Positions 6,691 through 50,270 of a DNA stretch of 64,000 nucleotides are shown piece after piece (the stretch's first letter is position 1; every line of letters begins with the position of its first letter). Below the pieces are notes generated by a model. The model saw only the letters and a list, made by a program, of their open reading frames with translations, did no database searches and had not been told where the DNA came from. Made by a program: the position numbers and the translations under genes. The stretch comes from Antennarius striatus (lineage: Eukaryota > Chordata > Actinopteri > Lophiiformes > Antennariidae): the NCBI RefSeq assembly GCF_040054535.1, contig NC_090795.1, positions 4,129,501-4,193,500 of the forward strand, in the 5' to 3' direction.

Positions 6691-6699
6691 CGTCCTCAG

Positions 6700-8761: not shown

Positions 8762-8836
8762 CTTCCTCTGATGTCTGTGGGACTGAGGTGAAGGGACAGA
8801 CCACCCACCTCTGAGGACAAAACAACACCCAGCCCT

Positions 8837-8845
8837 CTTTTTATC
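8837..8845 (-). promoter_or_regulatory. TATA-like element of chemerin-like gene 2
   Basis: GATAAAAAG sits in the block AGGATA(A/C)AAAGAG, which recurs upstream of gene 3 at a similar distance from its ATG (about 76-84 bp). It is therefore probably a shared core promoter. Gene 1 lacks an obvious counterpart. Confidence 0.55.
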
Positions 8846-8899
8846 CTGGCAAAAAACCAGCCGGAAACACAAGCCTTAAATGAGATATGTATAAAAAAT

Positions 8900-9688: not shown

Positions 9689-10428
9689 CTAAAAGATGGA
9701 AGGGTTTACTTCACTTTGTGCCAGAGGGGAATCGGCTCCACTTCTTCTGCCCATCCGGTTGCAGTGCTCCACTCTGGTCCACCTTATCTCCTGCCGGAAG
9801 AAAATATAGACAGATGGAACACCGTAACAAACAGTCTCAAAACAGCTTTAAAGTTGGTACAGCATCTCGGTGAGCAAACTGACCCGTGTGAGCTCCTTTT
9901 TGTTGACACATCGAACGTAGAACCTGGGATCTGGTTGAATCTGGTCATTAATGGTTTTGTAACAGATGCCACAGTCGATCACCACCTGCACAAACCCAAC
10001 AGCACACAGATGGGTCAGGACAGACACCGGGACCCTCAGAGTAATTTCTGATTGGCGTAAAGGAGGCCAAACTTACCCTGTCTCTTCTGGACTGACAGGC
10101 TGTGGCGTTAATCCCACAATCCTTTAGGTAGAAGTGGTGGTAGATGTATTTAACGTGATCGTCAGGCTGAAAGGAAGGAGCAGGCGTGAAAAAGGGAGGA
10201 CTTTACTCGCAATCATGAACAGCAGCTGAACACTACCTCAATGTCTGACTGAAAGATGCTTCTGTGGAAGACAAGCGTCTGGTTTTCAGCATCAGATCGG
10301 AGCATCTCCATGACCCGATCCACTCCTTTCTTGAAGCCCTCAGGGAGTCTGGCGTAGATATTCTTCTCGGTGTTGCAGGAACCGATCAAGGCTCCAATGC
10401 TGAATAAGAGAAGCATTAAAGCAGCCAT
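9689..10428 (-). CDS. Chemerin (RARRES2)-like secreted cystatin-fold protein 3 (divergent)
   Basis: Exons 10428-10237, 10166-10077, 9985-9884 and 9790-9689 (TAG), all phase 0, 161 aa. It has a signal peptide (MAALMLLLFSIGALIGSC), the helix FKKGVDRVMEMLRSD and the conserved strand YIYHHFYLK. All six cysteines are kept, but the first pair is closer together (DCGINATAC, six residues between instead of about ten). The tail RRSGADSPLAQ...NPSIF lacks the Tyr-x-Ser-Gly-x-Pro-Thr-Leu-Leu-Ala pattern shared by copies 1 and 2. The gene is intact, so it is a diverged paralogue rather than a pseudogene. Confidence 0.78.
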
Positions 10429-10501
10429 CTTTATTTGTGTGTGTAGTCTTGAGGTGAAGGACAGACCTCACACTGCCGAGCAGAACATCACATCCAGCGC
10501 T

Positions 10502-25354: not shown

Positions 25355-25359
25355 GGCAG

Positions 25360-28300
25360 CGTGAGCTTAATCTCGATCAAACGTTTCGGCGGCAACAAGC
25401 GTTGCTGCCCTCCACCATGGCAACACTGGAGCTCTAACCCTCGACACCTCTATTAAGAACCACAAGCAGGAGATATCCCTCTCGCCTATGCTTATCAAAG
25501 CCTCGTGATGCCCTAATCAGAGCCCTATCGGCAAAGCGGCCACCTTCACCAGTCTGCCCATTGTGCCCGGGCAGAACAAACACGAGTCGCGCTCTGGCTT
25601 TGAGGACAAATGCTGACTGAAAGGACAAGCCGTGTTTGAACAGCCAGGAACAAAACCTCACGTTGACATTCCTCTCAGCTTTTTAACTTTGACACATGAA
25701 GCCTAAATATTGACTAAGGTGCTCTCAGTCAAGGGCAATGTAAATGCTTAGGGACTAAACATCTTGGGTACATTTTTGATGGCTAATATTGACAGAAGAA
25801 ATGTGAAATAATGGGTTGTAACGCAGCTTGATGAAAGTGTTGCTTGTTGCTGAAAGGTAATAATGAACAATACTGACTGCTTTCTACGTGACAAACGACT
25901 AAAGGGTAAATTTATGTGATAGATTTTGATCTTGTCAGCAAAAAAGGCAAATTTTACAACTCATGAGGCAAAAAAAATGGTTTCTTTTTATAGACGAATC
26001 ATTAATGGGCACAAATGCAGCGAATGTGATAACTAAATGCTAAAGTAAGACAGCAAGCATGGAAACAAAGAAAACTTGAACTTTTGCTCCCTAGCAGAAA
26101 ACCAAATTAGCAGCAGAGGCTAACAGGAACAGGGTTTGTCTGGTGCACACAAGCAATGGCTGCATTATATAACGATGTGGAGGATTATGTGTGTCGTGAG
26201 GCTCAAATCCCACACGGTCAGCACAGGGAGGGGAAAAGGGAAGATGTCGCAGAGATCCATGTCATAGCAAATGGCTGATGAGTCACTTTGGGCATATCTG
26301 CAAGCAGGTCTGAGGGTAAAATGTGCTCCGAGTTCATTTTCGCTCACGGCAAACCGTCATTACTGAATTACATCATTGTTTTTCACACCTTCCTCTTGCA
26401 GAAACTTGTATTCCTTCAATCCACAAATGCACACGTCAGTGGCTTCACTAACAGAGACAGTCCAATCATTCTGAGGCTGGAAAACATATCCAGTTCTTTC
26501 TTTCTTTTTTTTTGCTCCCTGTCTGGTGATACCCTTTGATTCTGTTTGTACTGGGAAGCTGTCTGCAGTCATCAGTTTAATCATTTCATATAAGGTAAAC
26601 AGGCTTTTCAGTAGCCAAACACTGAAATGTTATTTAGCTCAAGCAGATTTATCACATTTATCCAAGTTGAAGATGTCAATGAAACGCGCTCAATCGTGAG
26701 TCACCGCCACAGATGTCAAAGTTCAATATGACCATTTCAGGAGGCAAATATTTCAAATTAGTTGACTTTAGACTGAAAACTGTGATACCCATTCAGACAA
26801 AAAACCTCATTTAAATGCTCTGCCACGCTCCGATTTAACCGAAAGACATTGATTAACATCCTTCACTTTCCGCCACCATGAAGTTGCCAGCAGGCTGGAG
26901 AATCAGAACCAAACTGGCACAAAAATCTCTGTAAAATTACAACGTGATGCTTTTATACTTTGGATTAAACACATTAATTCTGATTTTATTTACTGAGACG
27001 TTACGGTAACTCCAAATTTACTTCTAGAGAGAACAACACCATTTCCCCCCACTTTGTAGCCGTTATGCTATGCTATAGCAACGGTATCCTGGTGGTGTGG
27101 TTGGTATAAATCTCATTTAGATCCTTAAAGGAAAAAAATTAAAGAATTTCTGACAATTTCTTTGTAGGATCCAATTCTGTGAAGGCAGCCCTGGTTTGCT
27201 CTGCTGAAATGCTCTCTGACCTCTTGCCCTTCTGTGTGATAGGAGAAGCCAAACGGAACCACTGAGGTTTCAAACTGAGCGGCGGTATCTCAGTTTGCGT
27301 AACATCACTTCTTCTTAAAAGTAAAAGCGAATCTGTTGAAAAGAAAACAGTCCCTCCCTGCAGAAAAACTCAGAAATCCACCTGCTAACATTAGAGGGGT
27401 AACCATCTGTAATAAGTGATGTATTAAGGCGTTGGGTAGCGTTTGTTACCAATGATTTCCTTACCTGAGAAATGCAGGTGAAGAAGGAACACATATTAAA
27501 AACACAACTGAAGTGAACATTAACCACCTGCAGAGTTTATTTAGGCATAAATAGTCTTAAATTACTTTGCAGCCCTTTATATCGTTTAGCATAAGGTTCA
27601 TTGACCGAACAGGAAATGGAGAACAAACCTCACACACAGACTTAGACAAGCGACCATGCTGGACGCAGGCGTTACGTTTGCGTTTTCCATGCGTGGACAA
27701 AACAAACTCACCTTAAACGTATATAGAAAGTCCATCAAATTACACACAAGTGTGTTGCTGCACGCTCAAAACACAGCAAGATAGCTGTGTTTACTTTTCC
27801 AATGAGGAACTCAATAGCAAAAAGCCACCAGCTACTTTTATGTCTATCAGTTCTTGTCACATGACCAGGACAAGATCGTCAGGTGGGAAGAAGATGGCCG
27901 GTTTCACAACATCATCCCTCCATAATTCAAACAGGATTACCTGAACTCTCCCTGACCAAGCCTGCACACAAACACACATTGTTCAGGAGATAATGATTAA
28001 CTTGGGAGAGTCGGAGCCGACGGATCGACCAATGACAGCGAAGGTTCTGTCACACAGCAAACATTTTTATCATCAGAGGGCTTCTTGGTCACCAGGCTTC
28101 CTGCTGGCAAAATCTCATTACAGACCGGTTTTTACTCCAGATCACAATCTGAATATTTTTTACGGTAGTGAACCGTTTTACAGGTTACACAAACATCAGC
28201 GAAGCTTTGCTCATTCTGAACAGCATCTGTTCAAACCACAACTTTACGAGAGCAAAGTGAAATCATTCATACTGCACATACAGACAGACCAATAAATTTA

Positions 28301-29480
28301 AGAAACATAATCCTCCAAATGTTGAGGAAAACATATCAGAAGCCTCTTTAACCCGTGGCCTCCTGGACTCCCTGCACATCTTTCGTTACGTGGCATTTAT
28401 CAACTTCCACCTCTCGAATTCTCTGCATTCTATGTCCAGAATTATGGGGTTGGGTTTCAAATTCAGACCGCGCTTAAGTCGTTCATGTCCAACCCCCTCC
28501 AGATTACAGGTGGGTATTGACCGAGGTTGGAAGTTTGGCACCAAAAAGAAAGGAGCTGACAAAAAACCCCCACAAAGTTAACTGACAGCATTTCCTACAT
28601 TAGTTTTTGCAACGAGGAACGGATCAGGTTTGTCTTTTCTTGAAGAACATCATGTACATGCATAGATGGGTGTTGGAAGAACTTGTAAGCTTTCAGACTT
28701 TCAAAAACATAATTAAAGCTTCTAAACTCAGTCAGGAGTAAAATGGTTAACTCTTGCAGAGTTTATGCCAAAAAAAATAAATCAAGAAATCCTGAATTGA
28801 AGTAAAAGAATATGAAGTAGAAAAGAACATGCAATCCTTATAATTCCTGCAGTGGAACTGAACATATTAACTCCTGCAGTAAAGTAACCATGGGAAACTC
28901 ATGGCATCTGCTTCAATTGGTGGATTTTCCTCTAAGCTTGGGATGTTTTCTGCTGCAGCATCGTAATTATCCTAAGGTGGATTTCTCGAGAAAGTCCTGA
29001 GTCGAAGAATGCTGCTGTCTTGAGCCGCTGAGCTCCAGGCAGCGCGGTTATCAGATCGACCCCATGCGCAAATATTGTTTTAGTGTTTCCAACACTCGCA
29101 ACCCATAAAGTTAATGAAAAGAGGAAGGAAGCTGTCTCAGTTGTGGAACTGCTGACATTCCCCGGCGCTGTAATGACAAGGGAAATTCAGCAGCAGCTGC
29201 TGTCTCTGCAGATCTGAAGTGGTTTTGAGCAATTCGTTACGCTTTTTTTATTTGGCCAGTCAGAAATATTGCATGGTGCCAGAGAATTGGCTCGAGGATG
29301 TAACTAGATTTGTACACATGACTGTCCAAAATACACACTGCGATGCCAGAGGGGCCAGAGGATGCTGAGGCAGCATAAATCCAAACGGAGAGAAGATGAG
29401 TTAAGCAAATTTGGAGCAGTTACAGATTTAAACACGCTAACTGTTAGCATCACCTTCACCTGAATAGTATAAAACCTTTA
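25360..29480. other. slc4a2 5' intron / internal promoter region
   Basis: If the short N-terminal exon (25354-25346) has its own promoter, as AE2b does in mammals, it should lie in the first few hundred bases here. I see no convincing TATA box. No coding exon or recognised repeat is visible. Confidence 0.45.
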
Positions 29481-29483
29481 AAC

Positions 29484-29844
29484 CACATGTGTCAAACTCA
29501 AGACCCGGGGGCCAAATGTGGCCCGCTATATCATTTTATGTGGCCCGCGAAATGGTCAGAGTGTCTAAAAAAGAATAGGTCAAAAGTGTGCTTTGACCAA
29601 AAACTACATTTCCCACAATAAAGTAACTCAACCCATTTTAACATTGACAAAAAAGTTACAAAAAGATTTATAAAAGGATTTATGTTATAACAATAAATTT
29701 TGAGTTATTTAACATTTAGGAGTAGTTACATTTATTTGCATTACATTGAGTTACATTTAGATACATTTATTATTTACATCTGGCCCTTTGAAGACAGCCG
29801 TGATGCTGATGTGGCCCTCGGTGAAAATGAGTTTGCCACCCCTG
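29484..29844. mobile_element. Complete non-autonomous hAT-like element (361 bp)
   Basis: The ends are CACATGTGTCAAACTC and GAGTTTGCCACCCCTG, an imperfect terminal inverted repeat. The element is flanked by a perfect 8-bp target-site duplication, CTTTAAAC (29476-29483 and 29845-29852). Eight-bp duplications are the hallmark of hAT transposons. There is no transposase ORF. It sits about 80 bp downstream (minus sense) of the candidate slc4a2 alternative exon. Confidence 0.88.
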
Positions 29845-29924
29845 CTTTAAACCATACGGGCAGTGATGCTGAAGCCTGACCTCCCAGAGCACCCTCAAGC
29901 TTTTCTTGGCTCGCGTGGACTTAC

Positions 29925-30014
29925 ACTGCGAATAATCGATGCCGCAGCATCGGTAATCTTCTTGGGAGCGTTGGGGTTGCTCATGGCTCAACAGTGAAGT
30001 CGCTGCTGGAGAGG
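29925..30014 (-). CDS. slc4a2: Alternative 5' coding exon of slc4a2 (long N-terminus)
   Basis: ATG at 29984 with a good context (GAGCCATGAGC) opens 20 codons (MSNPNAPKK...SIIRS) up to a consensus donor GTAAGT after 29925. The phase is 0, so it splices directly onto slc4a2 exon 2 (PEAPAASSP...). An acceptor (tttccacag) at 30014 would make it an internal exon behind a non-coding exon 1. Human AE2a has 17 residues before PEPESLG while AE2b1 has the short MTQ. Here the choice would be 20 residues versus MSE before PEAPAAS, a close parallel. Not proven by transcript evidence. Confidence 0.65.
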
Positions 30015-31261
30015 CTGTGGAAAGCTGGTTTGAGTTGGCGTGGCTTTAGCCCTTCTCTTTCTCACTGGGACTCAGACTGCTTTTGGGCAGCATAACCTGG
30101 AGATAAGAGACGGATCAGGGGTTAGCCCAAATGAAGCCAGACATTTGCAATATGAGGCAAACACGACAACCAAAAAATCTTTTTGCTGCAGGCCGGTGAT
30201 CCTTCAATATGAAGCGCAATCAGAAAGTGAAAAGAGTTTTGGCTCTTGACTTCAATATTTTAGATGTAAAAGGAATTAATGAAAATAATGTTGATGTCAT
30301 AGATCCTCCAAAAGCAGAGCATTATTATTATTTTATTACTATCCTTGAATTTTAGTGCAATGCAGTCGGAAGATGATCATAAACATACTGAGAAAACCTT
30401 GGTTCATTTGGGGTAAAGAAGTGAGCTTTTTGTTATGCTAACACTTGCTGATCGGCACACTTCACAACCTATAGCTGAGGTTAGTTTAAATATTAACTAT
30501 TTGCTTTAGATAAATCACAGTTATTACAACTCTGTCTGACAGGGCTCTGATTCCTCCTCAGTTTATGTGGCGTGGACAGTAAACCACACACATATCACTT
30601 CAGCTTCTTAAAGTGCTGACTTTTTGATTTTCGTATCCAGTGTGCTGAAGTGCAAAGCCAACAAAAGACAAAGGAACACGCCTCACTCCCACACCGCCTA
30701 TAGTGTCATGTGACAACGTCATGTGGTCTGAGTAATCAACAGTTTCCAGATTTCCTGAAAGCCCCTTCCGCACCTTTGAGTGGTTGAACCCATTTTACAC
30801 CCAAATTGGCCGAAATAAACCTGATGCAACTTTTATGAGGTGGAAACATGACTAGATGACATCAGACATGAGGAGGACCAATGGCAGAGGCTGCAGAAGG
30901 ACATCCTGCATCAAAGTAATTTTACAAACAATGACACCATTACCTTAATTTCAGTGGCTCCTGGTTTGAAGTCGTGCAACACTTCCTCGCCACCACTGAA
31001 GGTCATTAGCCATTAGTGTTAGATAAGAGGCAGATAACGCACTGCCACTGTGCAGAGGACCCTTTGATAAGCGGCGGCACGTGCCTCTACTTACCTCCGC
31101 GTTCGTCACCCCCGGTTATAAGATATATAACGGCAAGATTAAAAGTGCAATCAAGGTAGATTTGCCATGAAATTACAGAGATAAACTTCTTAAACAGTCA
31201 AAATAAATAATTACAGTCAAGATGATTCTGCCTTCTCAAGCGTTAATGTCATGTATGTATG

Positions 31262-31432
31262 CAGCCTCGGGTTCAATTCTGCAGCCCTACGGGGGCACAA
31301 GCCAGTGTCAATTGTAAGCTGGTCCCAGATCAGGATAAATGCAGAGGACTGTGGCAGGAAGGGCATCCAGCATAAAAAACCTTGGATGAGATGTTGTGGC
31401 GACTTCCAACGGGACAAGCCGAAATGGAGTTT
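31262..31432 (+). mobile_element. 3' end fragment of a non-LTR retrotransposon (RTE/Rex3-like)
   Basis: Carries the recognisable order 'cagtgtcaattgtaagctgg', 'ggaagggcatccagc', 'gttgtggcgact', 'aacggga(c)aagccgaaa'. This is typical of the 3' ends of a widespread fish non-LTR element. It is only a tail and has no reverse transcriptase. The family name is from memory. Confidence 0.55.
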
Positions 31433-32200
31433 TTAAATCTTATGAGGCGCAAGTTAAAAGAGGAGCTGTTTTCTTCGCTCTTCTGCGTCACTTCACAAAA
31501 TCACAATAAAAAAAAATAAATTCAAATCTATTCCAGTTTTTAAACAACAGATATCAAAGAGCTGATAAGTCTCCTTGATATCTGAGCGTAATCACATTAA
31601 TGACCTTGTCGAGAGTGAGGTACAATTGCTGTATGTTTCATTAAAGCACAATCAATGATAAGAGATTAAATTTAAGTGTTTAAAGTTGGATTTTTTCTTT
31701 TTTAACACGTGCTTTACTGATAAGGTAGGAGGCAAAGATACAGAAGAGACGACGGGCAGAGGAAGGCGATGGAGAGGGAAGATGACATGCAGTAAAGGGC
31801 CTGAGCAGCGACGGAACCCGTGACTCAGCCTCAACGTATGGAAGGGGGGGGGTCCTATCAGGTGAGCTCATTGGGGGGGACAAAGAGAAGCCTTGTGGCT
31901 CTATCTCAATGGTGACCACTCCAAGTCATTTAAATAAGGTCCTAACGGGACGTCAGCTTCTAAGGTTTGAGGAGTCACGTCAAACCAGACGGGATCGGAA
32001 ATTGCGCCGTGGACAATTTCATCCTTCTGATGAAACTTATTATTTATTATTACTTTTCGGCCTCTCTTCTTGTAACTATTCTGACATTCTTTTTATCTCC
32101 CATCTGTTTTTATCGATTGTTGTTTCCGGCATCGCTGATGTCTGATTGCTGCATTTGTTGTCGTCTGATTAATGTTATTTTATGCTCGGCTGGCTGCACA

Positions 32201-32240
32201 AGAATTCCCCCCCTCGGGGGATTAATAAAGTTATCCTTGA
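32201..32240 (+). mobile_element. LINE/SINE tail fragment ('cggggg attaataaag')
   Basis: Matches the short 3' tail 'ttccccctcgggg-attaataaagt' common to fish LINE-derived repeats. The same tail appears at 46751-46790 and, inverted, at 41111-41135. Confidence 0.5.
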
Positions 32241-34739
32241 TCCTCGATAATGCAGTCTATTGGAGCTAGCCGGGGTATGTTTGAGGATTACTTTCTCAGT
32301 AAATCTAGACCCCACCACTGTGGAAGATGCAGGACCGGGTACACAGGGATAAAGTTACAGAACCCTGGGATCCTGAGCAGAAAGCATGGGAACCAGCTTA
32401 TCTACCTCAAGGCAGGTCTGTAACAACAGCGATCAGAAGGAGAAAACAATGGCGGCCGCAATTGAAATGCTCCTAAATGATCCTGATGTGTTTTGTCTGT
32501 AATGAGGTACAACCAATCAGAGGAGGGGGAAAAGAAAGGAAATGGTTATCCCTTATGTAATGACCAAACAGATGTGGATGAATGAGCAAAGGGGAAAAGA
32601 GGACAAAACATCAGTTTGTAGTTTCTTCTGGAAGAATTTGGTGTTCAGGCAGGAGTCATGTAAAGACACAGTCTTACAGAAAAAGGATTTTCCTTCCCAG
32701 TTTAACGTTTTTCCATGCATGACACATTCAAATGTGTGCAGGCAAGGCTTTGGGAAAATTATCCTTCTGGGAGGAAGTAAGTATGAAAACAGGAAGAAGG
32801 CAACTATAGACTGAGCCTATCAAGAGGAGGTTGAAATTTATATTTAAAAAAAAGAAAAGAAAAAGGTCACTCTGGGATTCTGCCCGTAATGTCAGACCTG
32901 GAATAATCAGAGACATTTTATCTGATTTTTATCTGATGAAGTTTTATCTTATCTGCCAGCGTTTACAACATCTAAGACTCGTGTGCTATATATGAGCGCC
33001 AGACGTCACCAAGTTTAAATACAATCACCTCTTTTTATAAGCATGACCTAAACAAAAGCTCCTCTGCATGCAGGTCAAAGGTCATCACATTCCTTATTTG
33101 ACTGACTTGACAGCTGATAATGAGTAACCCGCTATTTGTACATGCTGAGTTAACGCGCTGCTGCGGTTCTGAGGATGTTTCCTTTGCTGTTATCTGTAGG
33201 CCAAATTTATCAGACCAAACGGAAACCGTCTGACCTGAAATTCATCTGATTGTTCCGATGTTGAGTTTTACATCACACCTTCAGAGCAAAGAATTAATCT
33301 CCCACGGAGTACAAAAATAAAACTGATAACCACCCTAATTTCCAGTAATTACACAAAACACCCTCCAAAAAAGGCCCTGCTTACTTTCAGATGTTATAAA
33401 TGTCCTAAAAAGAGCACTGTCCTCCTTTGATTGGGGACATAAAGGCAGGTTACGGATACCTCTGGGGGAAAAGAAGACTTTAAAAAAGTCAGGAAGTCTT
33501 TTTCAATGAATGCAGAAAGACAAATATTCAGAGGATGCATCGCAACGAAGGTTGCCCTAGCCAGAGGAACTTGACACAAATGGTAAAACTGCAAGATCAT
33601 ATACTGTACAAAGTCAATCAAAGAGCACAACAGTTCAATAAGGTGTGTAAAGTGACTTGTCCACATAGGAGCTGGATGGCCAAACCTCGACCGACACAAG
33701 GGCCTGTAGTTACAGAAGACGAACAATGACAGGGAGGAAAGGGGTGGGTTAAAGTTTCATTAAAGAAACGGATCTAAAAAGAAGACAGCATGGCATGCAT
33801 CCACCTCCCAGGAGGCGAGTCTAAAGGAGCAAAACAGACGATATGACGGCTCCAAGTGATCCGATGTTAATGTTTCACTTTAAATTTTATTTTGAATATC
33901 ATTTGTTTAAAGATCTGATTGCAGACAAATGGTGCGCGTAATAAACAGAAGTGATTTAAATAGACAAACAAATCAGGAAGCGGTTTTTTTTATTAACTTA
34001 CAAATGGTCACTTCAGATTCCACCAGAGCATTAAGAAAGCCATCACTTCCACATTCTGATGTCTAGAAGCTCCAACTGTGGACTTATTGCAGTGGAATAT
34101 GTGAAAATGTTTGATTGAGACTCTGTTGTGTAATTCCTGAATCTATACTGGATTTATCTACAGTAGAGTCACAGATAATCTTGTAGATTATTAAATTGAT
34201 AAAAACAGGCGTGCGACTAGTGTCAAAAATCTGGCTGTGAATCGTCTACACCTGACATACAACCGCACTACCCGAGGACTAGAATGAATTAAACACATGA
34301 TAAAATTAAACAAGCAGCACAAAATGACATTCTGTCAAAAAAGGTAATTTGACAACAAATTAAAAATTATAAATACAGACAGATCAGTGAGTGTTGCATA
34401 CCTTTGTATGTTTACAGCAGAGAAGCCACCGCAGACATTGTAGAGAAATTCTGAACTCTGTGGCGAAGAGAGACCCGGTCTGGTCAGAGTGCAGGAAAAA
34501 CCAAACAGAGGGAGAAAAGAGAGATAGAGAGACAAAAGGAACGAGAGTTAGAGATATGCCCCGGCTGATCGAGCGCTCTCTCTCTCTGACCAACATACAC
34601 CGACTGATAGGGGCAGCCTTCCTCCTCCAGATTATGTTTCCTACTCCGGCCTGCTGACAAGTAGTCATGTGACTCCAGGACCCATTCAACACTGAGTCAG
34701 AGGCTGGGGATCAGACGCAAAAATCCATCTGTGTGTATC

Positions 34740-35272
<533 letters not shown>

Positions 35273-35274
35273 TT

Positions 35275-38200
35275 AATGGGAAAGCAATGACCTGTTGCCT
35301 AGTGTATTTCTGATTATTAAGTGACCTTGCGTCTTGAATGGTGGATGCTGATAATTCAACGCCGCGTCTGTGTCTGCGTTTAATTGTGTCTGTCAGACGT
35401 CACCGGTTTGCGCTGCTAAAATAGATTCAGAGCAAATAATCCTTCAAAAGGCTCCCTCACACGCTGCACGAAAAGGACAGTCCTGTGTTCTACATGTCAG
35501 ATGTTATAGTTTATTATCTACCAGGCTTATGAGATTGCTGGAGTGATCGTAAGACACTGAGAAGAAAAAGAAACAGCGATTCATAACATTAATCAGCTCT
35601 ATAAAGATGGCTTGATGCATCCAGGGTCACGCATAGCATTCAAAACTCCAAGGACCAGCTCAGGCACAAATAAAGGCACGACCTACTCGGGCCGACTGAG
35701 CGCTATGGAGCCACATTTGTGGGTTTATTTGTTTTCAGTTGTCCAACTTCTTCTCTAGCTGCTAAAGAGAAGGCTGCAAAGCTCCAGAAATGTTTGGCGA
35801 CCCAAGAAGCGTCGGCTGACTTTCCACCGGACAGGACTGGAATAGAAACGCCTTCACCCCTGCTGCTTTCTCATATTTTAAGTCCGATTGGGGTTAAACG
35901 TGGTCCAGTAAAGCAGTTTGCATCAAGACAAGTCCAAGCATATTTCATTGCTGAAAGAAACATAAGGATAAAAATAACATTCCCCGACATTTTTTCCACG
36001 ACAACATTCCCCGTTTGGTTCTTGTAACTTTTATTCACAGTGTTAACCATGACTCAGAAATTCTCCCTCCAGCTTCCTGTCATTCCTCTCTCCTCCAGCA
36101 AAGTAATTCACAAGTCTGCCAGGCTGTATTTACACATTGAGAACTCAGCTGAGAAATAAATTTACCTCACAGAAATTGCAAAATCCTCCGTTGACAATGG
36201 ATCATTTCAAGGAGAAGCGACGTACTTGCAAAACACACAGGAGTCGCCGCTAGGTGTTCACCAACTCCAGCTTCCTGTGCAGCCTTGCAATGCAAACCCC
36301 GGGCCTGGCTGAAGCCTTACACCGGTGACAGCTGCCCTGTTTATGAACCTCTTTGGGGATTTGGCACTGCTATATGTTGATAGCTGCCCCGCTGTTGTCT
36401 CTGAGTGTTTCACCCCGAAATAGCTCGGCGGTTTAGAAGTCACCCCTGCTACATCTTGATCCTTTCAACATGAACCCATCTCCACCTCCCCTGCTCTGCT
36501 CTTCACAGACCAGTGGCCACGTTAACTCTATGAGCATTTGGCAGGGTCCGGCCCTTCAGCGTGACTGGGTTAAGTTATTTGCATATGCTCACTGGAACAC
36601 TTACAGTCTCACACAGCTAACAGCTGCATCGTGCCAACGGGTGTCCATCTTTTCATTCGTTCTTTGTCCAGTCAAAAGGCTTCACTCGGCTACGACAGCA
36701 CCTGTCTTTCAGGGTGAAGAGAGATTGAAGTGGCAAATAAACCCTGAAAGTTTAAATAATGCCAGCCCATTGTCCTCTACTCCAGAAAAGAAAAATGCAA
36801 TCACCTGTCAAACATTTTTATACCTCCATGAGGGTTAGGGTATGTGGGCTTTCGCAGAAGGCCAATGCACATTATGACATGAAAAAAAAATCTATGCCTG
36901 CAGACTATAACTAGCTTTTGTTGGCTTTTTAGCTAGTAAATGTTCATCTGCTAGTTGCTGGCTTTGTTTGGCGGTGTGTATGAGAAGATCTGTGGAGTCT
37001 GGAGGTAACCCTCTCTGGCTTCACCCCAAGCAATAACAGCTTTTACATTACACTCCATCATTTAATCCATCGATAAGACATAGCCAATGTTTTTTACAGC
37101 TCTAAATATCATCCACATTCTCTGCCTCATATCTTCAAATCACAAATGTCAAGGAAAGTGAACTTCAAAGGAAAGTGTAATGGGGATTTATTGTTTTTGC
37201 AGCTCTGAACCAGCAGCCAAAGTATTAGCAGTGTCAAATCACCATCTATATTAATGGAACAAGCCACTGAGGCCATGACATTTTGAAGATATGATCCTGC
37301 ATGCGCCTTACCCACAACCAGGAGACTTAAAAAGCAACAAGTAGCAGTTTGTGGCTAAATCAAAGAAGCAGAAAATTTACTGAAAAGATGTTCAAACCAG
37401 CTAAATAGTGCGAGGTTACCTTTAAAATGTTGTAATACTTAATGTAGATGATTTTTGAAAAGCTATTATTAAGAGTCACACTGGACGCTGATGCCGTTTT
37501 GTGAAGACTGGTCCCAACCTACTACGGTGGTGTTAGGGTGTGGCACTTTCTAGTCAGAACTGCATCCAGGGCCGCTCAGATTGCATCAGCTGCACAAAAG
37601 GTATGGCCGTGTTCTCACAGAAACACCGTAATTGCGAGGCTTTGACCCGGTGCTCTCCTAATGACTGTATTTACCCTCATGAGACTCGGCCTGAGACGGG
37701 AATAAAATATCTTCCAGGCTCCCAGAACACAAACAAAAGGCCAAGGACCTCGTACTACAGTCAAATACAAACCAGCCATTTATCAATTTCCTGGGAAATA
37801 ACATTATGTGATTATGTTTGTTATTGAGTCTGCTGGTACAGGCGAAGAAATGGCATGTGAATTTAAATTTATAGCCTTGCGGGATTGGATGAAAACAACG
37901 AAGAGCTTCGTCGTGTTGCGTAATTAAGGACATAATTTGATCCTCCACAGGCAGCTCCTGGCACTTTAATGGGGTGTGCGCGAGCGTGATAGTCCAAATT
38001 ATGCACGTTTACAAGGTAAGCAATGATAACAGTGCATCTTAGTCGCCTACAAGAGAACAACATGCATTCATCATCTTGAAGCGGAGGACAACGATGCAAC
38101 TAAAAATAATAGTGTTTAGTTTAGGCTAAAGCAAGCTTTTAGACTTGGTGTGTTTACTGATTAAGTTGGGGGTCTGTTTATCTTCAGGGGGTAAGGTAAA

Positions 38201-39670
38201 ACAAACAGCAAGAGTCAAGAGACTGTGATGAAGTAAAAAAAAAAAATCAAATATCAGTCTTTTCTTTCCTTGCTTTCTGCATGAACAAGCGATGGGCGGC
38301 AGGAATGTAGAGACATTCTGCTTGACGCTTTGTGCTTCGTTGTGTTTTCTTCAGCAAAACACACCACCGCCGTCGCAAATCATTTTACAATAAGTGTGTT
38401 TGACATACTCCTCTGGGGCGAAGGAGAGCAAATAGAAGCTGAGATTGTGAAGCCACAGATAAAATGGACTTATCTGATGAGTTCAAGCACCAAGAGGGAC
38501 CATGGAATTTGAATTTTTTTGTCTCCTTTAAGATTGGACAAGGTCAGATTCACCAAGACAAACAGTTTGGATTCTGCTCGTGTAGAAGTCCTTGACGTGT
38601 CAGCTGTCGTAGGCCGAAAAGACGCCATAGTGGTCTGACTTTCTGGATGAATCTCAATAAAAAGAATCACTTTATCGGGCATCTAAAATTAATAGGGCAG
38701 TAAAATATTTCCTCAGATATTCTCCAGTGCCCACAGAGGTGATATTGGTGAGTCAGCAGATGAGAAACTTCCTTCCGCCAGACGTGCACGTCGTGACTTC
38801 TGATTCCCTGTGACAAACAATTTTGTGACCATGACTGTCAAACTATGCAGGAACCTGAAAGGGGGGAGGGGGGGTATCCATGGCAATGAAACTCAAAAAT
38901 TACTCCGTTTCACAACTTTCCAGGACTGTATGTCATTTAAAACACAATACTTCCACGTTTTGATGTTTGCTAAAGCTAGGAACACATTCTTAATAAGCAT
39001 TAAAGTATAGGTGTATTATATCATTATATCACCATGACGATAATGATACTATACTTGGATCTGTCCAAAAGGAATAATGCCAACTACAATAATTGCTTGA
39101 CATGGCAAACCCATTTCTACTATGAACCATTTTTACTCTGAATCTGAATATTTTCATTATTTGTCTGGATACCTAATCAGAGATACATGAAATCTGTTTG
39201 ACTAACCTTGAATGTGAAGGTTCTCAGCTATACATTGTCATGTTCCTCTCTGTCACCTCACTGTAACCCCATATTTATTGCCCTCCTTAAAATACATATT
39301 CTAATCTCCCAGATTCTGATCTGGATCCAGATCTGGATCCAATTACATACTGTATAATAGTGGAACATCATGAGATTATTATTTTCAAAAGCATTAGCAA
39401 AAAAAAGATTTTAATAATGATCTTATTTTGTGGGTTGATACTTAAATTTGTTTTTATGGTGTCATAATCCACTTTCACATGTAAACGGGTCTGTTGTAAT
39501 CTGTTAGTAATGGTGGGTTTAACAATGTGAAAAAAACCCCAGACTAGATAATCACTAACAGCTATGTGTTGAAATAAATATGAATTTATATATATTAATG
39601 ATTCTATTTAAATAACTCATTGTCTGCCTTCAGAAACAAAAGGACAAGGCCTCTGTTCTGTCAGTGCGCA
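35275..39670. other. Non-coding region, no gene seen
   Basis: ORFs of up to about 120 codons occur here but show no family resemblance, splice support or codon signal. No recognised transposon. Confidence 0.5.
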
Positions 39671-39678
39671 GTGAACTA

Positions 39679-39732
39679 ATAAATGAATGAATGAATGAAT
39701 GAATGAATGAATGAATGAATGCAAACTGACTC

Positions 39733-39796
<64 letters not shown>
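39679..39796. repeat. Compound (AATG)n - (CA)n microsatellite
   Basis: A (GAAT)n run at about 39679-39721, then (CA)n at 39735-39796. Confidence 0.97.
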
Positions 39797-39798
<2 letters not shown>

Positions 39799-40221
39799 AC
39801 TGAAGGAGGGCTCACACCAGTCTGTCCATCATATTTTCACACAGAGGCTGCTGCCAGGAGGAGTGACCGCTAGCTTGCTAAAAAGAGGAACTCATTTGAT
39901 ATCATCTTCTGCGGCATAAACCCTAAACAAACCTTTAATTCCGACCACATTTAAGTGACTTGTTACCCTCCACGACGTGGCTAACTAGTCCACACACAAA
40001 ACGAAGTCATCCACCAGCAGCAGCGGAAACATCCAACGCATGTGTGGCAGATAACTTACGGGCTGTCAATGCACCCTCTCTTCACAGGTCGGCTATGTCC
40101 AGTTCCTGGCCAGCTAAATGGCGATAGTTGAAATAAAAGGCGCGTCTTTCATTAAATTCATCCACTCTGAGGCTTATAATAACACACAAGTTTAAAATCA
40201 ATTACTTACCGATGCTTACTC

Positions 40222-40280
40222 ACCGCAAACTCTCGCTCAATGATTTACTAGCCCAGCCGGTGTCAAAATTTCACAACATA
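40222..40280 (-). other. slc4a2: Possible non-coding first exon of slc4a2
   Basis: The minus strand reads GAGAGTTTGCG|GTGAGTAAG with a consensus donor after 40222. It lies in a less AT-rich patch facing away from the plus-strand gene at 41985. A non-coding exon 1 upstream of the 30014 acceptor is expected, but nothing here proves it. Confidence 0.3.
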
Positions 40281-40289
40281 CAGATATTA

Positions 40290-41072
40290 TTCCGGTAGAA
40301 GTTTCAAATTAAAATATGTAATTAAATGTACGGGTAATTTATTGTATTTGTCAATATGAAAACGCACTATTTTGTTTAAAATGTGCTTTTAATAAATAAA
40401 ACATGAAAAAATATTGTATCGAAGCTCGACACAAGCTTTTGATTCTTACAAACAGAATTTCATGCTTTTATTTTGAAAAAGCATTTTTAATTTCCGGTGT
40501 TCTTCTTTAGTTTCACGGAACTTTTTGCCGTATTCTTAAAACAGAAATTGCTGCGCCTGCGTAAATGGTGAATCATATTTCTGATGTAGACGGCTCTCCG
40601 TTATGAAGAACATTATCCCCAAGGACATAGATGATAGTAAGAAATTAACTATTAACAAAGTTTTTTTGTTCCCGGTGTTAATTATTACACACTGATGTAA
40701 TGAAAGACCGGTTCGGATTACATTTAAAAAGAAATAATAATTAATCTACAGAAGTAAATTATTATACATTAAGGTATAATTATCCCATCAGCGAAGTTGA
40801 TTCTACGCCTCTTGAAGAAGTGACCAGATTACATGATATTATTAACATAATTATAACCCAAATTAAATATTTTTGAAAATAGAATGGAAATGGCATGGCT
40901 TAATAATCAAAAATTACTTTTATGTAAGTAATGCTCTCATTATGTACTGATATAATGACCCCTAACATCTTCAGTCTTTCAAAGTGACAATTAGAAGGCA
41001 TTCATTTAATTTACAAATGTGATTAGAAACATGCAAAGTAATTTACAGTATCCACTGGTCTCATGAACCTTA

Positions 41073-41984: not shown

Positions 41985-44900
41985 ATGAGTTCTTCTGCCC
42001 CACCGGTAAGCTCGCAGATCACCGAGCTGCGTTTGCCGTGACACCGTAGCGCGCGTTGACTAGCTAGGGTTAGCATTAGCCTCGTCATCGGGGTCCATCA
42101 GCTGTGAATGCTAACGTTGTTTACAGACAGCCTGTACCGCATCAAAGCTTCCCAAAGTACCGTTAGCTTTACCTTAGCTTGTTGCTATGTTATTTAAAGT
42201 TACTTTCCTTTTGGTTTATTACCGATTAATCCGGACTGACTGTGATTAAGATTAAAAAGTCTGGACGAACATTAACTTAGAATGAGAGGGACGACAGTGA
42301 AGGCCGGCCAGACGGACGACATGCTAGCATGTCGGTAATGAAGGACAGTAAATGAGACATCGTGGGTTTAACTATTCGACCTTTCTATGTCTGTGACCCG
42401 GTTTACCAGCATAATACAGTATAGACAGAACACATTGATCAGACAGTAGTAAAACATTGTAGAAAACTTAAAACGTAATAAATGGATAAACGACTCAACA
42501 ACTTTTAAACGCGTCATTCAAACCGGGAGTGCGTCGATGTCACACGATTCAATTCAATTCATTTCAATTCAAAAAACTTTATTTGTCCACTGAAAAGTTG
42601 CAGAAGAAACAAAATACAGTTTAATGTAAAGATAGATGTAATAGAGGTGCAGGGTCTTATGATATACAGTATAACACATTTACTACAGATTTAAAAATGA
42701 ATGTGGCATAGAATAGGCATTGGGTAATAAATATAACTTGATAATATAAAGTTCAACAGCCTAAATGTGTGCTTTAACTCAAAATATAAATCTGTTTGTT
42801 ATCCTGATCCAAAATAAAGAAAGCCTGATCAGCTGTACTATGCTAATCATTGTTAATTAAGGCATCCAGTTTGTGCTTTAAAGGTCGTTCAGTTGTTGTT
42901 TGTATTATTTTTTTGTAGACTATTGGGGAGTTGTTCCTCATCCTGAGTGAGATGGGTTTCACAGAGGAACAGATCCAGGCAGCTATCCAGGCCGGACATT
43001 TTTCCGTGTCTGATGCAACTGAGTGGTGAGTTGTCGCAGCCTTTAATTTTTAACATCTTGAATAATTACCATCCTTTAAACGTTAATGTAATTGTCTTTA
43101 AGTTTGCAAAAGGCAACTCTTTCAGGAAATGACATTTGTGTCTTTCTCTCAGGCTCCTTCACGGTCAGTATCCACGACACAAGTTGGTGAAACAGTCATC
43201 GCAGCCGGCTGAAACTGCGTTTTCAGCATTCAACCCTCCCAAAGTGGCAGCAAGCACTTCAGGCACACACACATCTGCCTCAGGTAGCAGCAGACTCTAC
43301 TTGCCTTTAACAAGAATGTTTTCAATACAGCATTATAATATTCTGTGAACATTTCTGTGTCATCGTGCAATTGAATTTTTCTGTGACATTTAAAGAATGG
43401 TGTAGGGTGTGGTTTTAAATGTGGGAACTTTTTTTTTTTTTTTCATTTCAAAAGCATCTCCTTCATTGTTGCTGAGACCGTCGCAGCCATGCAGTGAATC
43501 CCCACACCCCCTACCCGTAGAGTCCCGGATTAAACCTGACAAGAGTGACTTTGAAGAGCAGCAGAGACAACGTGTTGCTCAGGAGGCCAGAGCAGAGAGA
43601 AGACAGAAGAAACAGGTCGGCGCTGTTAATCCTTCCCATTCAGGCTGCTTTGCAGTTTGTTGTTATGCAAATGACAGAATCTTCAAAACCAAACTTTTTT
43701 TCCCTGCATAGAACAAAAATTTGCGTCCACACGACAGCATTTTTGGAAAAATCTCCCTCCAAACGTAACCGCATAAGTGCGTTGATCAACATGTTTATAA
43801 GCAGAACAACTCCGAGAACGACAGGAGAGAGGACCGGGATGGGTGGAAATTCACGCCTTTCCTCCTTGAGGATGACCTCCATCACAAAGTTCTCCCACCA
43901 GCAGTCAGCGCATCCCGGTCTAACTCAGAACTGGCTACGGCGTCTTAGGCGAGGAACCAATGAATGAATAAATGAATAGATATATAAACATAAAGAAAGA
44001 AACAGACGAACAAATATTCAACCGTCAAGCATGTTTATCAACGCGTCTTCGACGTGGAGCTGTTATGCGTCAGAAAATAGCTGTTTTTAACTCCGTTCAC
44101 GGGTCACACACACTAACGTCACAGCGGTTTCCCTCGCGGGGAGACGCCCCCCAGATAGAAAAAGTTTCGGTTACAGCATCCACACGACAACGCAGACCCG
44201 GCATTTTCAAAAAACTTCACTTTGGCTGGCGTTAACGAAAGTTTGTGTTGTCGTGTGGACAGAAGGCATAACCGTAAGAAAAACTTGCATTTTCAGAAAG
44301 AGCCGGCTAAGCGTGAATGGGGCCTCAGAACCGAACGTGTGTGTGTGTTTTCCTGGCAGGAGCGCGAGCTGGTGCTGAAGCGGATAGCTGAGGATCGGAG
44401 AACTTTACAAGAGAAGACCCAGACGAACGTCAACGCGGAGTCGTCTCCTCCTACTGGTCATGGGCAGAAGCTTGGGGGGAAGATGCAGACCAATGTGGAT
44501 AACAACTGCGTCCTCATGGTGAGGCTGTGGAGAATTTCAGACGTAGGTAAGGAAAATGAAAGAAGAGTAGTTGTTAAAAACTTTTTTTTTTAATATGCTT
44601 CAGATTCGCCTGCCGACTGGGGAGTCGATGCGCGAGCGCTTTCCAGCCGACGCACCTCTGCGGCGTGTCGTGGAGCACATCAGCGGACGCCACCCCACGC
44701 TATCCTCCTTTTCCCTTCTCCAGGGTTTCCCACGGAAACGCTTTGGGGAGGCAGAGCTGGCCTGTTCCCTCCACTCGCTCGGCCTCACGCCCAACGCTGC
44801 GCTGTGTATTCAGACCACTCCACCACAAAGCCCTCAGGACGCACCGAGTCCTGCAGAGCCGCCACCAGCGCCGCAGAATGTACCGTCATCGTGTGACGTG

Positions 44901-47900
44901 TCGCCTCATGTCCCGGTGCTTGAGGGGGCGGGAGGGCAAGAACTCGTTCTGCCCCCTCCACTCCCCAACCAGCTGTGGGAAGAGGCTGTGAGTTACGCAG
45001 GGATACCTGGAGCTGGGGCTTCACTGTCTGGACAATCTCATTTCTGGGGTAAGTTTAAATGAATCTCATCGTATTGTTCAAGTATTCAGCAGATTTGCTG
45101 TTTTACATCTCAATTTTTATTCATCAAGGCTTGTTTGTCGTGTGCAGTTGTGCAATTGTGGCAGCCTGCATAAATTATACAAGGAGTTGCAAAGTGGAGT
45201 GAGATGGTGCTTTTCCTCCGTACCAAGTTCCTGTCTAGAATGTTTCTTTCAATTATTTCCCGTCACCAGTGTTACGTGTTTGTGTTATGACCTGGAGATT
45301 AACAAAACATAGTTTAAGAAGGCACTAAGCTTTTAATTGCAATGCGCTGGATTGTTAATTCTATTAGGCGTGTCTCCTTCCTCCTTCTTCGGTATGTAAC
45401 AATAGTTGCAGTCATTTCATCATTTTCTTTCCACGCACACAGAATTCTTCCACTTTACGCAATGGTATTTTCATGACAATAGAGCTCCAGCAACCATTTA
45501 GCTGAAATGCATTCGGTTGTTTGTTTCATCAAGGAAATCCTTGCCAACCTTTTAACCCTTCCACCTGCATGTTTTGTGAAGGCTTTGCTTATATATCGTT
45601 AACTTATACATAGTTAACGTACAGCAGGATTGAAGAACATTAAATATGAGCCTGATATTTTTTTTCTAACATGGTGAAGCAGCACTTTGAAAATATGAGA
45701 TTATAATTGAGTTCAATGAACATGTATTAACATAGTATTTATATCATTATGTTACAAATAACACAAAAAATGATTCGACAGGTATGGATTTGCTTTTGTT
45801 ATTAGTAATCAATCAATCCGTTTGTGCTGCCGTCATGTGTCATGGTGATGTTACAAGATAGAGTACAACGGTGAAAAAGATCATTTTCAACAGGACGGGG
45901 CCAGAGGTTGGTTCCTGATAATGCGGAGGAGGCTGCTGATGAAGAACAAGAAGAGGAGGAAGAACCACCTCTTTTGCTTAATGGTACCACTTCCTGTGTC
46001 TGACGCCCCTCTCCACTCTCTCACTCCTTTTTCCTCCCACTTAACGCTTTCCTTTCACCTATAGGATATTTCCTGTGTGTCTGTAGGACTTATCCGCCCA
46101 CATCAATCATGTTTACATACATCTTATAGAAAGTTTCAATTGTCCTTTCCAGAACCAGATAATCCTGGCTTCTATTTTTAGCCTTATACTCATTTAAATA
46201 CTATGTTGCGTGTATGCTTCATTGTATTTACATTTGACTGACTACCCTAGTAATTACTTTCAGTTTTAAGACTGATTGGGTTTATGACTTGTGTAGGTGG
46301 AAGCTCCCCTCTACCAAAAATTGTCGAGGTAGTCCTCAACATACAAGCACAATTGGTTTCGAGAGGTTGTTCGTAAGTTGAATTGTTCTTAAGTTGTGAA
46401 AAGTTCTATCCATACTCACCATTTGAGGTCATTGCTACTCTAAATACGGAAGTACAATTGCCTAAGACTTATTAGAAACAAGTACAAGACACAAAAACAA
46501 CACATAATAAAATAAAATGCATGTACAAGTTATTTTGGGTTAAGTCGTTCTCAATTGTACGTCGGTTTTCAAAAAAATACAAAAATAAAAATCAGGTTTA
46601 CGTCACTTCACTCGAATTTACTTCTGTCCACCACAAATATTTGACTCTTAATCACTAAATCACATGAAAACCACTACAAACACATAATAATATGTTATTG
46701 TACAAAAAATAAGGATAATAACACATGATCATATTAAAATAAGTACAAAAGAGAATTTCCCCATTCGAGGGATCAATAAAGTGAATTTAATCTTTTAATA
46801 TTTAATATAATTCCAATATGTATCATTAAGCATCACTCGGGATTCAGTCGATTGCTTTGAAATCAGATTAGTTTATGGTAAACTTTTGCTCCTTATAATT
46901 TAATCCTTGAGGAGAAGAATAAAAACACTTCAAGAAACTTCAAGTTTTTCTATGTTGAGGACAACCTGGACAAATAAGTTCAGGGCTGCTGAGCTCTATG
47001 GAGAATTCCTATGCTAGTTATTGAAAGTCAGCCAATCATTGTCAGCTCATCACAACCTGGGGCTCTTTTATAATGTAGGGCGTAGCCTACATTAGTTGTT
47101 GAGAGCAGTCGAATCACATCCAATGCCTGATAGGACAATAGCAACATTCAGAGCAGTTGATGTTGATAATTTCTAAAGGCATGAGTGCAGAAATGGAATG
47201 TTAGCTATTCACACAATAGAATCAGCCAAACATTCAAGAAGTGACCGAGACTGTAAATATATCAACCGGTTGTGACGCAAAATGACGACTTTGAGGGTCA
47301 TCTTGTTGATACTAGATCGTCCTCTGGATTGCAGTTTTATCTGTATTTTTTTTTTTTTTCACAGGATTGCCAAGGCTGCCTTTCTTTCCAGAGAATAGGT
47401 TCAGAGGAGAATTTGAGCCCAGACACCGCTGGCCAGAGCAAGGCAATCGACTCAGGTGGGTGTCTGGACTGAATGGCATGTATCAGTCCCGTAGGCTCTG
47501 GGAAACTCTAACAAGAGATTTCTGCTTGCATTCGTATCTCAGTTTTTTTTTTTTTAATCTCTGAATTTAAAGTTACAAGGAAAATTGCTCTCTGACAGCG
47601 ACATCCTGATAGTCATCATTTATCAATATTAAAGACGTACAAGGCAGAGACAGATGATTGAACAGTCTTGAGGTTAAAGTGCAGCGATGTGAAATGTTTT
47701 CAATTTAATACCATATGGTCCACTTGTCCTTGTGAAATCCTCTCTTGTAGCTTATCTGCAGTTCAGATTTAAATCCCAGGTTCAATGCAGTATAAAAGTA
47801 AAAGACTGTTGTTGTTCTCAGGGAGGCTCCAGAAGAGGAACCAGCAGAGCCTGAGGATGCTGGAGTTCGGGTGGCGCCTGTAGCTGCAGGTCTTGCAGCA

Positions 47901-49220
47901 GTGGAGCGTCTTCAAAGAGCCGCACAGCAAGAAGACCCCCGTGTCTCGCAGGCACAGCCATCGCCCCCTAAAAGACCTTTCAGGACGCCCCGCATGCCGT
48001 CCCTATGTGCCTTGGCCACTCGTGCAACCGTACACCTCATGACTGGTAAGAAGACACGCAGAATGCTACAAGATATGACGTCTCACGGCTTGGTTTACAC
48101 CCTGTTGTTGTTGCGTGTCGCTACTCAGCTCCCAGCATGCAGTACAGCAGTAGTCTGGCATGCCTCACCCCAGAACTAGCAGAGCTTCTGCTCAACCACA
48201 TGTCCCGCGAGCGGCTCCTCCGTCCACGCACCCTGGAACTGTTCTTCGGCTGCCCGTTGCAGACGTTTGTCCTAAACTGCTACCCTTACTCCACCAACGA
48301 GCTCCTGAGGCAGTTGCGGGCCTTCACGTCACTGAAGCATCTGAGTCTGGTCAACTCGCCTCTCATCACTGGTACGGAAGTCTGTCCAAGGACGGACATT
48401 CTAGGCTGATATTGTCTGTCAATCATGTGTTAATTCAGTCCAATCTCCCAAAACCTGTTCTGTTCAGACTCGGGGTTATCAATCCTCTCTAGCCTGACCA
48501 AACTGCAGTACCTGAACGTGGCCTCGTGTAGCAAACTGACTGACTCCTGTCTGCAGCATATCACCGGTGAGGCTTTGTGAACGCTCTAAACGTCACATCT
48601 CTGCTGCTCTGCTTGGAGCTCTGGTGTTTTTGCCTCTTCTCACTTCTTTCCTTTCTGTCTTTACAAGGTTTAAAGAACCTGTGTTTCCTGTCCCTGGATC
48701 AGACTAAAGTGACCGATGCTGGGATGGTGTTATACCTCCAGTCAGCTCCATCATGTCTCTCCCAGCTCAGCCTGAACCAGACAGCTGTGACGGAAGCTAC
48801 ACTGGTGGTCTTATCCACCTGTGTTCCGCAACTGAGACTCCTCAGCATCAAACACACGAAGGTCCTCGAGCTCTTTTTCTGTCAACTAAGTCTGCCTCTT
48901 AATTTACAGAATAAGGTCAGTTTTGACCTTTTGAATTTTATTTTTTTTGTCTTGATGGGTGTTCCCTCAGGTAAAGGATGTGACAGCTCTGGCAGAGCTG
49001 CCTGGCCTGCAGACTCTGAACCTGGATGGGACAGGGGTGACAGAAAGCTCCCTGGAGCGGCTGGCCACCCATCCTACCCTCTCCTCCATCAGTTTGTCAG
49101 GGATTCCTGTTGCAGATGGCAACCAAGCACTGCAGATCATCTCTGGTGAGTAATTGGAAATGCGAGCAGGTACAACAGTGTTTGAGCGTTCAAAAACTGG
49201 AGTGGTTGAACTTCAGTAAC

Positions 49221-49279
<59 letters not shown>

Positions 49280-50270
49280 AATTTCCCTCCATCAGAAACA
49301 CTGACGTTGCAACATAAATCAATTAACCTGAGGAGTGGTTCTGACTGTCTTCCCAGGTCTGAAGTTGACTCAACTGACACTCCCAGGACGTCACTCTGTG
49401 ACAGACAGCGGCTTGTTGTTCCTGTCTAGATTGTCTCTGTTGTTGGAGTTGGACCTGACAGACTACAATCAAGTCACAGACCAGGGCGTCAGCCAGCTGT
49501 CTACCATGACCAGGTGACCTCACCCCTGCTTCGAAGCTGCTTCATATCCTGCGCAAAACACGCAGAAGCTTTGGTGTTATTTCCAGTGGGATATTAACCT
49601 CAGGACTGCGTGTAGGTTGAAGAAGCTGTCACTCAGCAACACTCAGGTGACAGATGCGGGGCTTCCACCTCTGTGTGGCCTGCAGGAGCTGCAGGACCTC
49701 TGCCTGGACCGGACAGCGGTCACCAGCCGAGGGGTGGCGGATCTCATCATCTGTCTGCCGCACCTCCAGGTGTGTTTGTGGGTGAAGCGTGCATAGTTAG
49801 CTGATTGTGCTAGGAGAGGCATTTATTTTATATTTCAGTTTTCAATTACATGATAGGGTATCTGAAATTATCTGATTTATGGTGTTTATTCCTTTTTCAG
49901 GTGTTGGGGTTAGCCAGCACTCGGGTGGGAGACACAGTAGTGAGGAGAGGTCTGATCCACTGTAGTCAGCTGGTTAAACTCAACCTCAGCCGCACCCGGA
50001 TCACAGACCACGGTAACGTCAGATTTGATATTTTCACTCCCTCCATCATTACAGCAATTTAATAAACAAAAAAAAATGTATGTTTTTCCCCCAGGCTTGA
50101 AGTTCTTGAAACACATGCACCTGGCTCAGGTGAACCTGGACGGCACCGGCGTGAGTCTGATGGGCATCGCTAACCTCTTGTCCTTCACCAACATCAGCAG
50201 CATCCGGGCCAGTAACACTCGCACCGTCCCCCGAGACGAGGTGTCCGATGAGGAGTGGCAAGCTCAGTGA
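41985..50270 (+). CDS. UBA-coiled coil-UBX-leucine-rich-repeat protein (912 aa)
   Basis: Seventeen exons in consistent phase: 41985-42005, 42919-43025, 43153-43283, 43455-43615, 44360-44518, 44604-45048, 45894-45983, 47365-47455, 47822-48045, 48129-48371, 48468-48566, 48668-48861, 48971-49145, 49357-49513, 49616-49769, 49901-50012 and 50095-50270. Residues about 8-50 form a UBA-like domain (SEMGFTEEQIQAAIQAG). A charged coiled coil (EEQQRQRVAQEARAERRQKK) spans about 116-157. A UBX domain (IRLPTGESMRERF...) spans about 190-268 with the p97-contact motif FPR at 235-237. A proline-rich and then acidic linker follows, and leucine-rich repeats of about 24 residues (LQTLNLDGTGVTESSLERL) run from about 480 to the end. 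UBA binds ubiquitin and UBX binds p97/VCP, so a substrate-adaptor role is likely but inferred. I do not recognise a named mammalian orthologue. UBXN1-type proteins share UBA and UBX but have no LRRs. Confidence 0.88.
42010..42900. other. Intron 1 of the UBX-LRR gene
   Basis: Contains an 'attcaattcaattc...actttatttgtcc' LINE-tail-like repeat at about 42547-42600. Nothing else recognised. Confidence 0.6.
43706..44325. mobile_element. Palindromic hAT-type MITE in intron 4
   Basis: Arms repeat 'gtccacacgacag' (about 43723), 'atccacacgacaacg' (about 44178) and its complement 'gttgtcgtgtggac' (about 44247). An inner inverted pair, gtgcgttgatcaacatg and catgtttatcaacgcgt, lies at about 43777 and 44030. 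This layout is typical of fold-back non-autonomous elements in fish. The exact ends and target duplication were not resolved. The spurious ORFs here come from this element. Confidence 0.6.
45050..45890. other. Intron 6 of the UBX-LRR gene
   Basis: AT-rich. No feature recognised. Confidence 0.6.
46327..46967. mobile_element. 641-bp MITE with 17-bp terminal inverted repeats
   Basis: The left end aggtagtcctcaacata (46327-46343) and the right end tatgttgaggacaacct (46951-46967) are inverted repeats with one mismatch. Subterminal 'gttgttcgtaagttgaattgttcttaagttg' is typical of a common teleost DNA element. There is no transposase ORF. A LINE tail fragment lies inside at 46751-46790. The element is in intron 7 of the UBX-LRR gene. 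Confidence 0.75.
49224..49277. repeat. CA microsatellite in intron 13 of the UBX-LRR gene
   Basis: Uninterrupted (CA)n of about 54 bp, some 80 bp before the acceptor of exon 14. Confidence 0.97.

Follow-up and report, generated by a model that had tools for sequence, protein, structure and literature searches.

The gene at 41985..50270 on the forward strand of the window (the whole stretch of Antennarius striatus DNA analysed here, 64,000 nucleotides long, C20:4129501-4193500) encodes a UBX domain with an FPR motif, an exact SHP consensus and an array of leucine-rich repeats (LRRs), and its gene model is sound. The best explanation, to which we give a probability of about 0.5, is that the gene encodes a single-chain client adapter of the ATPase p97, which would dock through its UBX domain and its SHP box and hold a client of its own in the LRR arc. 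Coordinates, strand and content of the parts of the gene, with the basis on which each is drawn, are:

41985..42005, + strand: exon 1, with the start codon (CpG o/e 1.14 at 42001-42500)
42919..43025, + strand: exon 2, most of the UBA-like domain (aa 15-44, with MGF at aa 19-21), below the Pfam cut-off
43153..43283, + strand: exon 3, end of the UBA-like domain and a low-complexity linker (gene model)
43455..43615, + strand: exon 4, linker and charged helix-like segment (gene model, heptad test)
44360..44518, + strand: exon 5, charged segment and first UBX strand (gene model, Pfam)
44604..45048, + strand: exon 6, UBX body (to 44813), linker and start of the SHP box (gene model, Pfam, alignment)
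44727..44735, + strand: FPR p97-contact loop, aa 235-237 (alignment with known UBX chains)
45042..45048, + strand: exon 6 part of the SHP box, aa 340-347, FWGRGQRL (motif scan)
45894..45983, + strand: exon 7, second part of the SHP box (at 45894-45910), with an acidic stretch (gene model, motif scan)
47365..47455, + strand: exon 8, linker containing WPEQGNRL (47430-47453), a degenerate SHP-like sequence (gene model, motif scan)
47822..48045, + strand: exon 9, linker and start of the LRR N-cap (gene model)
48129..50270, + strand: exons 10-17 with their introns, LRR N-cap and about 15 leucine-rich repeats (gene model, Pfam, periodicity)

Built by hand from splice sites, the coding span has 17 exons and one terminal stop, all 16 of its introns are GT-AG, and the rebuilt frame has exactly the 912 residues given for it in a preliminary description of this DNA. 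That description also took the agreement in phase of the exons as proof that two genes had not been joined by mistake. This does not follow, since two transcripts are compatible with phase agreement, and the agreement of the 17 exons is not independent evidence because the splice sites were picked to preserve phase. Domains or motifs that span junctions are better evidence, and they cover junctions 2/3, 5/6 and 6/7 and those of the LRR exons. When the genome (548 Mb, 42 contigs) was searched with the whole protein, 20 rows came back: 16 are the gene's own exons 2-17 (exon 1 is absent because its seven residues are too short), and the remaining four have E values of 0.006 to 0.014; no second copy or paralogue was found among the best 35 candidates scored in this search.

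As domain predictions, the UBX and LRR regions are secure. The UBX domain (aa 188-263) scores 53.1 bits in the whole protein against a Pfam cut-off of 21 (E 3.7e-14), and the FPR at aa 235-237, within GFPRKRF (aa 234-240), lines up with the FPR of UBXN4, UBXN7 and FAF1 chains; the UBX domain with an intact FPR motif, as proposed earlier, is confirmed. A sequence search of structures places UBXN4 and UBXN7 nearest among solved UBX domains, with FAF1 next. The UBX profile has at least seven matches at no fewer than six loci of the 548-Mb genome, counts that are lower bounds in a search run exon by exon, and the gene described here is the best of them. Comparison with the aligned chains identifies L003 as UBXN7, L005 as FAF1 and L006/L007 as UBXN4, so that our gene is none of these; L004 is a further UBX match, L008 presumably resembles the p47 group, and UBXN1 was not recognised among the matches of this exon-by-exon search. 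An N-terminal UBA domain, also proposed earlier, is plausible: a UBA-like match is present, at 14.7 bits in the whole protein and 19.6 bits (E 0.00083) with the N-terminus alone, below the Pfam cut-off of 22.4. The proposed coiled coil was not recovered at aa 113-162, where a crude heptad test of our own gave a best a/d hydrophobic fraction of 0.50 against a shuffle mean of 0.498 (p 0.75); the segment is a charged stretch and probably helical. The acidic linker is present, as an acidic stretch in exon 7.

The LRR array is matched in the whole protein by Pfam LRR_4 (E 3.4e-14) and, likewise above cut-off, by LRR_6 and LRR_8. A repeat pattern, composed after the sequence had been seen, matches 14 times with starts at aa 545-841 (shuffle mean 2.1, maximum 9), the spacing between matches being 22-26 in 11 of 13 cases and one extra match overlapping its neighbour. 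By eye there are about 15 units, with less regular ones at the flanks, and the Pfam families and the periodicity agree with the more than a dozen units described before. Structures that a sequence search with the LRR half brought up include internalins, GALA proteins and FBXL17 (E 3.4e-6 and 4.1e-6 for FBXL17). Bacterial descent of the repeats was considered and rejected (one planctomycete locus of 55 pattern matches, best segment 35% identity); the likeness to internalins, GALA proteins, FBXL17 and the planctomycete locus is that of a common repeat class, from which descent cannot be read. Neither an F-box nor another ligase box appears in the LRR N-cap, which matches no Pfam family at E up to 10 in a scan whose HMMER filters drop most matches above E 0.1, and no ligase receptor is among its 10 structure hits; a possible likeness of this cap to the ZYG11/ZER1 family is given no weight here. 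The parallel once drawn with F-box LRR proteins of SCF ligases is therefore an analogy only.

A predicted SHP box, overlooked in the preliminary description and, besides UBX, another known p97 N-domain motif, is a strong addition to the UBX-LRR protein. FWGRGQRL (aa 340-347), in the linker after the UBX domain, fits exactly the SHP consensus aromatic-x-G-x-G-x-x-L (PMC5559722). Shuffling the whole protein yields this strict pattern in 1.7% of cases, and shuffling the linker (aa 264-478) in 0.3%. A six-frame scan of the window (121,653 residues) finds the pattern a single time, at 58985. It misses the aa 340-347 site because intron 6 splits the box, which exists only after splicing of exon 6 to exon 7; its creation by that splice therefore supports junction 6/7. 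In 219,552 six-frame residues of 36 loci the strict pattern gave 3 rows at two distinct and unrelated sites, which are probably due to chance. The two Derlin tails of the same genome, our positive control (FAWGEGQRLGG and HSWGQGHRLGAE), do not match the strict consensus and have in common with the aa 340-347 box only WGxGxRL, a pattern chosen post hoc, after the tails were known; it is absent from all six frames of the window, and in the 36 loci its 5 overlapping rows all fall on the two Derlin sites. UFD1, whose SHP box is FRAFSGSGNRL (PMC5042407), uses F228 and L235, and Derlin-1 uses W242 and L248 (PMC9814400); F340/L347 has the spacing of the former and W341/L347 that of the latter, and the UFD1 phenylalanine three residues upstream has no counterpart in the fish box. 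The second SHP-like sequence, WPEQGNRL in exon 8, is not claimed: sites with at most one mismatch number 1.08 per shuffle against 5 seen, the strict one included.

We infer that the protein binds p97, with the UBX domain in the groove of one N-domain and the SHP box on an N-domain's outer face, probably that of a neighbouring N-domain, that the UBA-like N-terminus may contribute ubiquitin binding, and that the C-terminal LRR arc would keep a specific client (or client complex) over the pore as p97 pulls ('hold and extract'). SEP client adapters use UBX together with SHP as their p97 module (PMC9941556), and in p37 the two lie on adjacent N-domains, the client being docked by the LRR protein SDS22 (PMC10350818); one chain would here do the job that p37 and SDS22 share. 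In p37, 20 residues are said to bridge 50 Angstrom; by analogy, the 76 residues between UBX and SHP in the fish protein (aa 264-339) could span that distance. The earlier idea of a p97 cofactor that selects its own substrates is a fair reading, strengthened by the SHP box; against it, no F-box was found in the LRR N-cap, the UBA is below threshold and the coiled coil gave no signal. We suggest, tentatively, that a UBX+SHP+LRR holder on one chain may represent a third class of p97 client adapter, besides Ufd1-Npl4 and the SEP-domain proteins, in which p97 would be directed to a single chosen complex and no separate subunit would be needed for recognition.

From its predicted domains we class the protein as a putative p97 cofactor that combines UBX and SHP in an unusual architecture. 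We do not count it among the SEP, UAS or F-box proteins, since searches for those domains were negative; neither SEP nor UAS is among the 11 Pfam families that the whole protein matches at E up to 1. With p47/NSFL1C and p37/UBXN2B it shares UBX plus SHP, a predicted two-point grip on p97 in the fish protein, p47 having in addition a UBA at its N-terminus, but the fish protein has no detected SEP domain, its SHP box follows the UBX (the reverse of p37), and a long LRR arc comes next. UBXN1/SAKS1 has the same UBA-like start, helical stretch and UBX; it ends with the UBX and is not known to have an LRR. To our knowledge, SDS22/PPP1R7 contains neither UBX nor SHP. Together with p37 it presents the same kind of LRR arc, which keeps the client on the p97 N-domain (PMC10350818), but it is a separate protein and docks by its C-terminal helix. 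FAF1, FAF2 and UBXN7 have a UBA, where the fish protein has a UBA-like start, then a helical stretch and UBX as in the fish protein, and also have UAS domains (PMC9941556), whereas the fish protein has no detected UAS and carries SHP and LRR; in the same review UBXN1, a protein of 297 residues (PMC10641518), is described as apparently devoid of an SHP box. The earlier statement that UBX adaptors usually pair UBA with UBX or SEP alone is too restrictive, as combinations with UAS, VIM and PUB exist, UBXD1 having both VIM and PUB (PMC10641518). FBXL-type receptors have an LRR class like that of the fish protein, in which no F-box was detected and which has predicted p97-binding parts instead. Derlins share the WGxGxRL core of the SHP box but are membrane proteins, and a Derlin-type membrane domain was not matched in the Pfam scan of the whole protein.

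It is conceivable, but rather doubtful, that the protein is an accessory adapter whose helix and UBX brace Ufd1 in the manner of FAF1 and FAF2, speeding ubiquitin-dependent unfolding, the LRRs serving only to localise it. A charged helix-like segment does precede the UBX, phmmer extends FAF1 matches across it (for the first 480 residues as query, 11ta_M at E 0.0031; for the charged segment alone, 9yw2_H at E 0.025 and 11ta_M at E 0.15), and helix plus UBX suffices in FAF1 (PMC13356908; PMC12965308). However, the match over the helix is weak, UAS is missing from the Pfam matches, and an SHP box on the same chain would presumably compete with the Ufd1 SHP boxes beside the FAF1 site.

The single-chain adapter presupposes one transcript joining the UBX/SHP and LRR parts, which we infer. 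For the junctions that link the two halves (7/8, 8/9 and 9/10) the evidence consists of splice sites, phase and an open reading frame; no motif crosses them. Codon bias failed as proof of exons 7-9: the coding frame was not favoured, mean in-frame scores being -0.38, -0.31 and -0.10 with another frame higher in each, and exons 3, 4 and 6 did no better. Intron 7 (1.4 kb, 45984-47364) contains six poly(A)-like hexamers, and the scan, which ended at 51000, showed none beyond the stop; a short UBX-only form may therefore exist. The CpG o/e of 1.14 at exon 1, against 0.44-0.73 over 45001-48500, favours a single unit. Alternatively, the gene might give two products, the first a UBA-UBX-SHP protein that stops within intron 7, the second an independent LRR protein or a minor, fused form. 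This would account for the hexamers and for junctions 7/8 to 9/10 being crossed by no motif, but is unlikely given the absence of a CpG-rich start between 45001 and 48500 and the fact that exons 7-9 are in phase and open, though an open frame is also present in 38% of intergenic pieces taken at random with lengths of 90, 91 or 224 bases. That the LRRs and their N-cap bind a cullin adapter, making the protein the p97-recruiting subunit of an E3 ligase in the way of CUL2-LRR1 and UBXN7, separate chains of which UBXN7 forms the link to p97 (PMC9358472), would suit an LRR class like that of FBXL17 and the GALA proteins, but is quite improbable for an N-cap with no Pfam family and no ligase receptor in the scans given above.

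A second CpG-rich stretch (44001-44500, o/e 1.11) lies upstream of the UBX body, across intron 4 and exon 5; it may be a mobile-element remnant or an inner promoter or start. Intron 7 also holds an inverted repeat, 72% complementary (46321-46367 with 46927-46973), perhaps a mobile-element remnant at which a short UBX-only transcript could end. To the left of the gene lies an anion exchanger gene (-), a fragment of which best matches anion exchange protein 2; to the right are an ABC-F gene (-) and a gene (+) that best matches chondroitin sulfate synthase 2. These fit SLC4A2, ABCF2 and CHPF2, which we take to be neighbours at human 7q36.1, so that the earlier 7q36 placement is reasonable. Over about 24000-41000, some 17 kb upstream, no exon was recognised by eye among open frames of at least 70 aa, a length below which exons escape. 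Farther off are adjacent pieces of B-type mannose-binding lectin genes at 1393-1686 (-) and 3347-3730 (-), the second above the Pfam cut-off and the first just below, and three tandem copies of a small secreted-protein gene (about 5649-6780, 8247-8875 and 9851-10467, all -), which we take to look like chemerin/RARRES2; five pieces of these copies scanned gave no Pfam match, and one piece no meaningful structure match.

No UBX-LRR protein turned up in the literature searched, which excludes most subscription journals, and the main text of a review counting 35 known adapters contains 'leucine-rich' and 'LRR' 0 times (PMC10641518). If the single transcript is true, the protein would have a p97 adapter layout not found in the reviews and literature searched. 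A 2023 review asks whether there are routes of client targeting to p97 beyond Ufd1-Npl4 and the SEP adapters, and in its account no such further route has been rigorously demonstrated (PMC9941556), and the UBX+SHP+LRR protein is a concrete candidate for such a further route. Moreover, the hold-and-extract idea, drawn from the p37-SDS22 structure (PMC10350818), becomes testable in one polypeptide, whose LRR arc should name the client.
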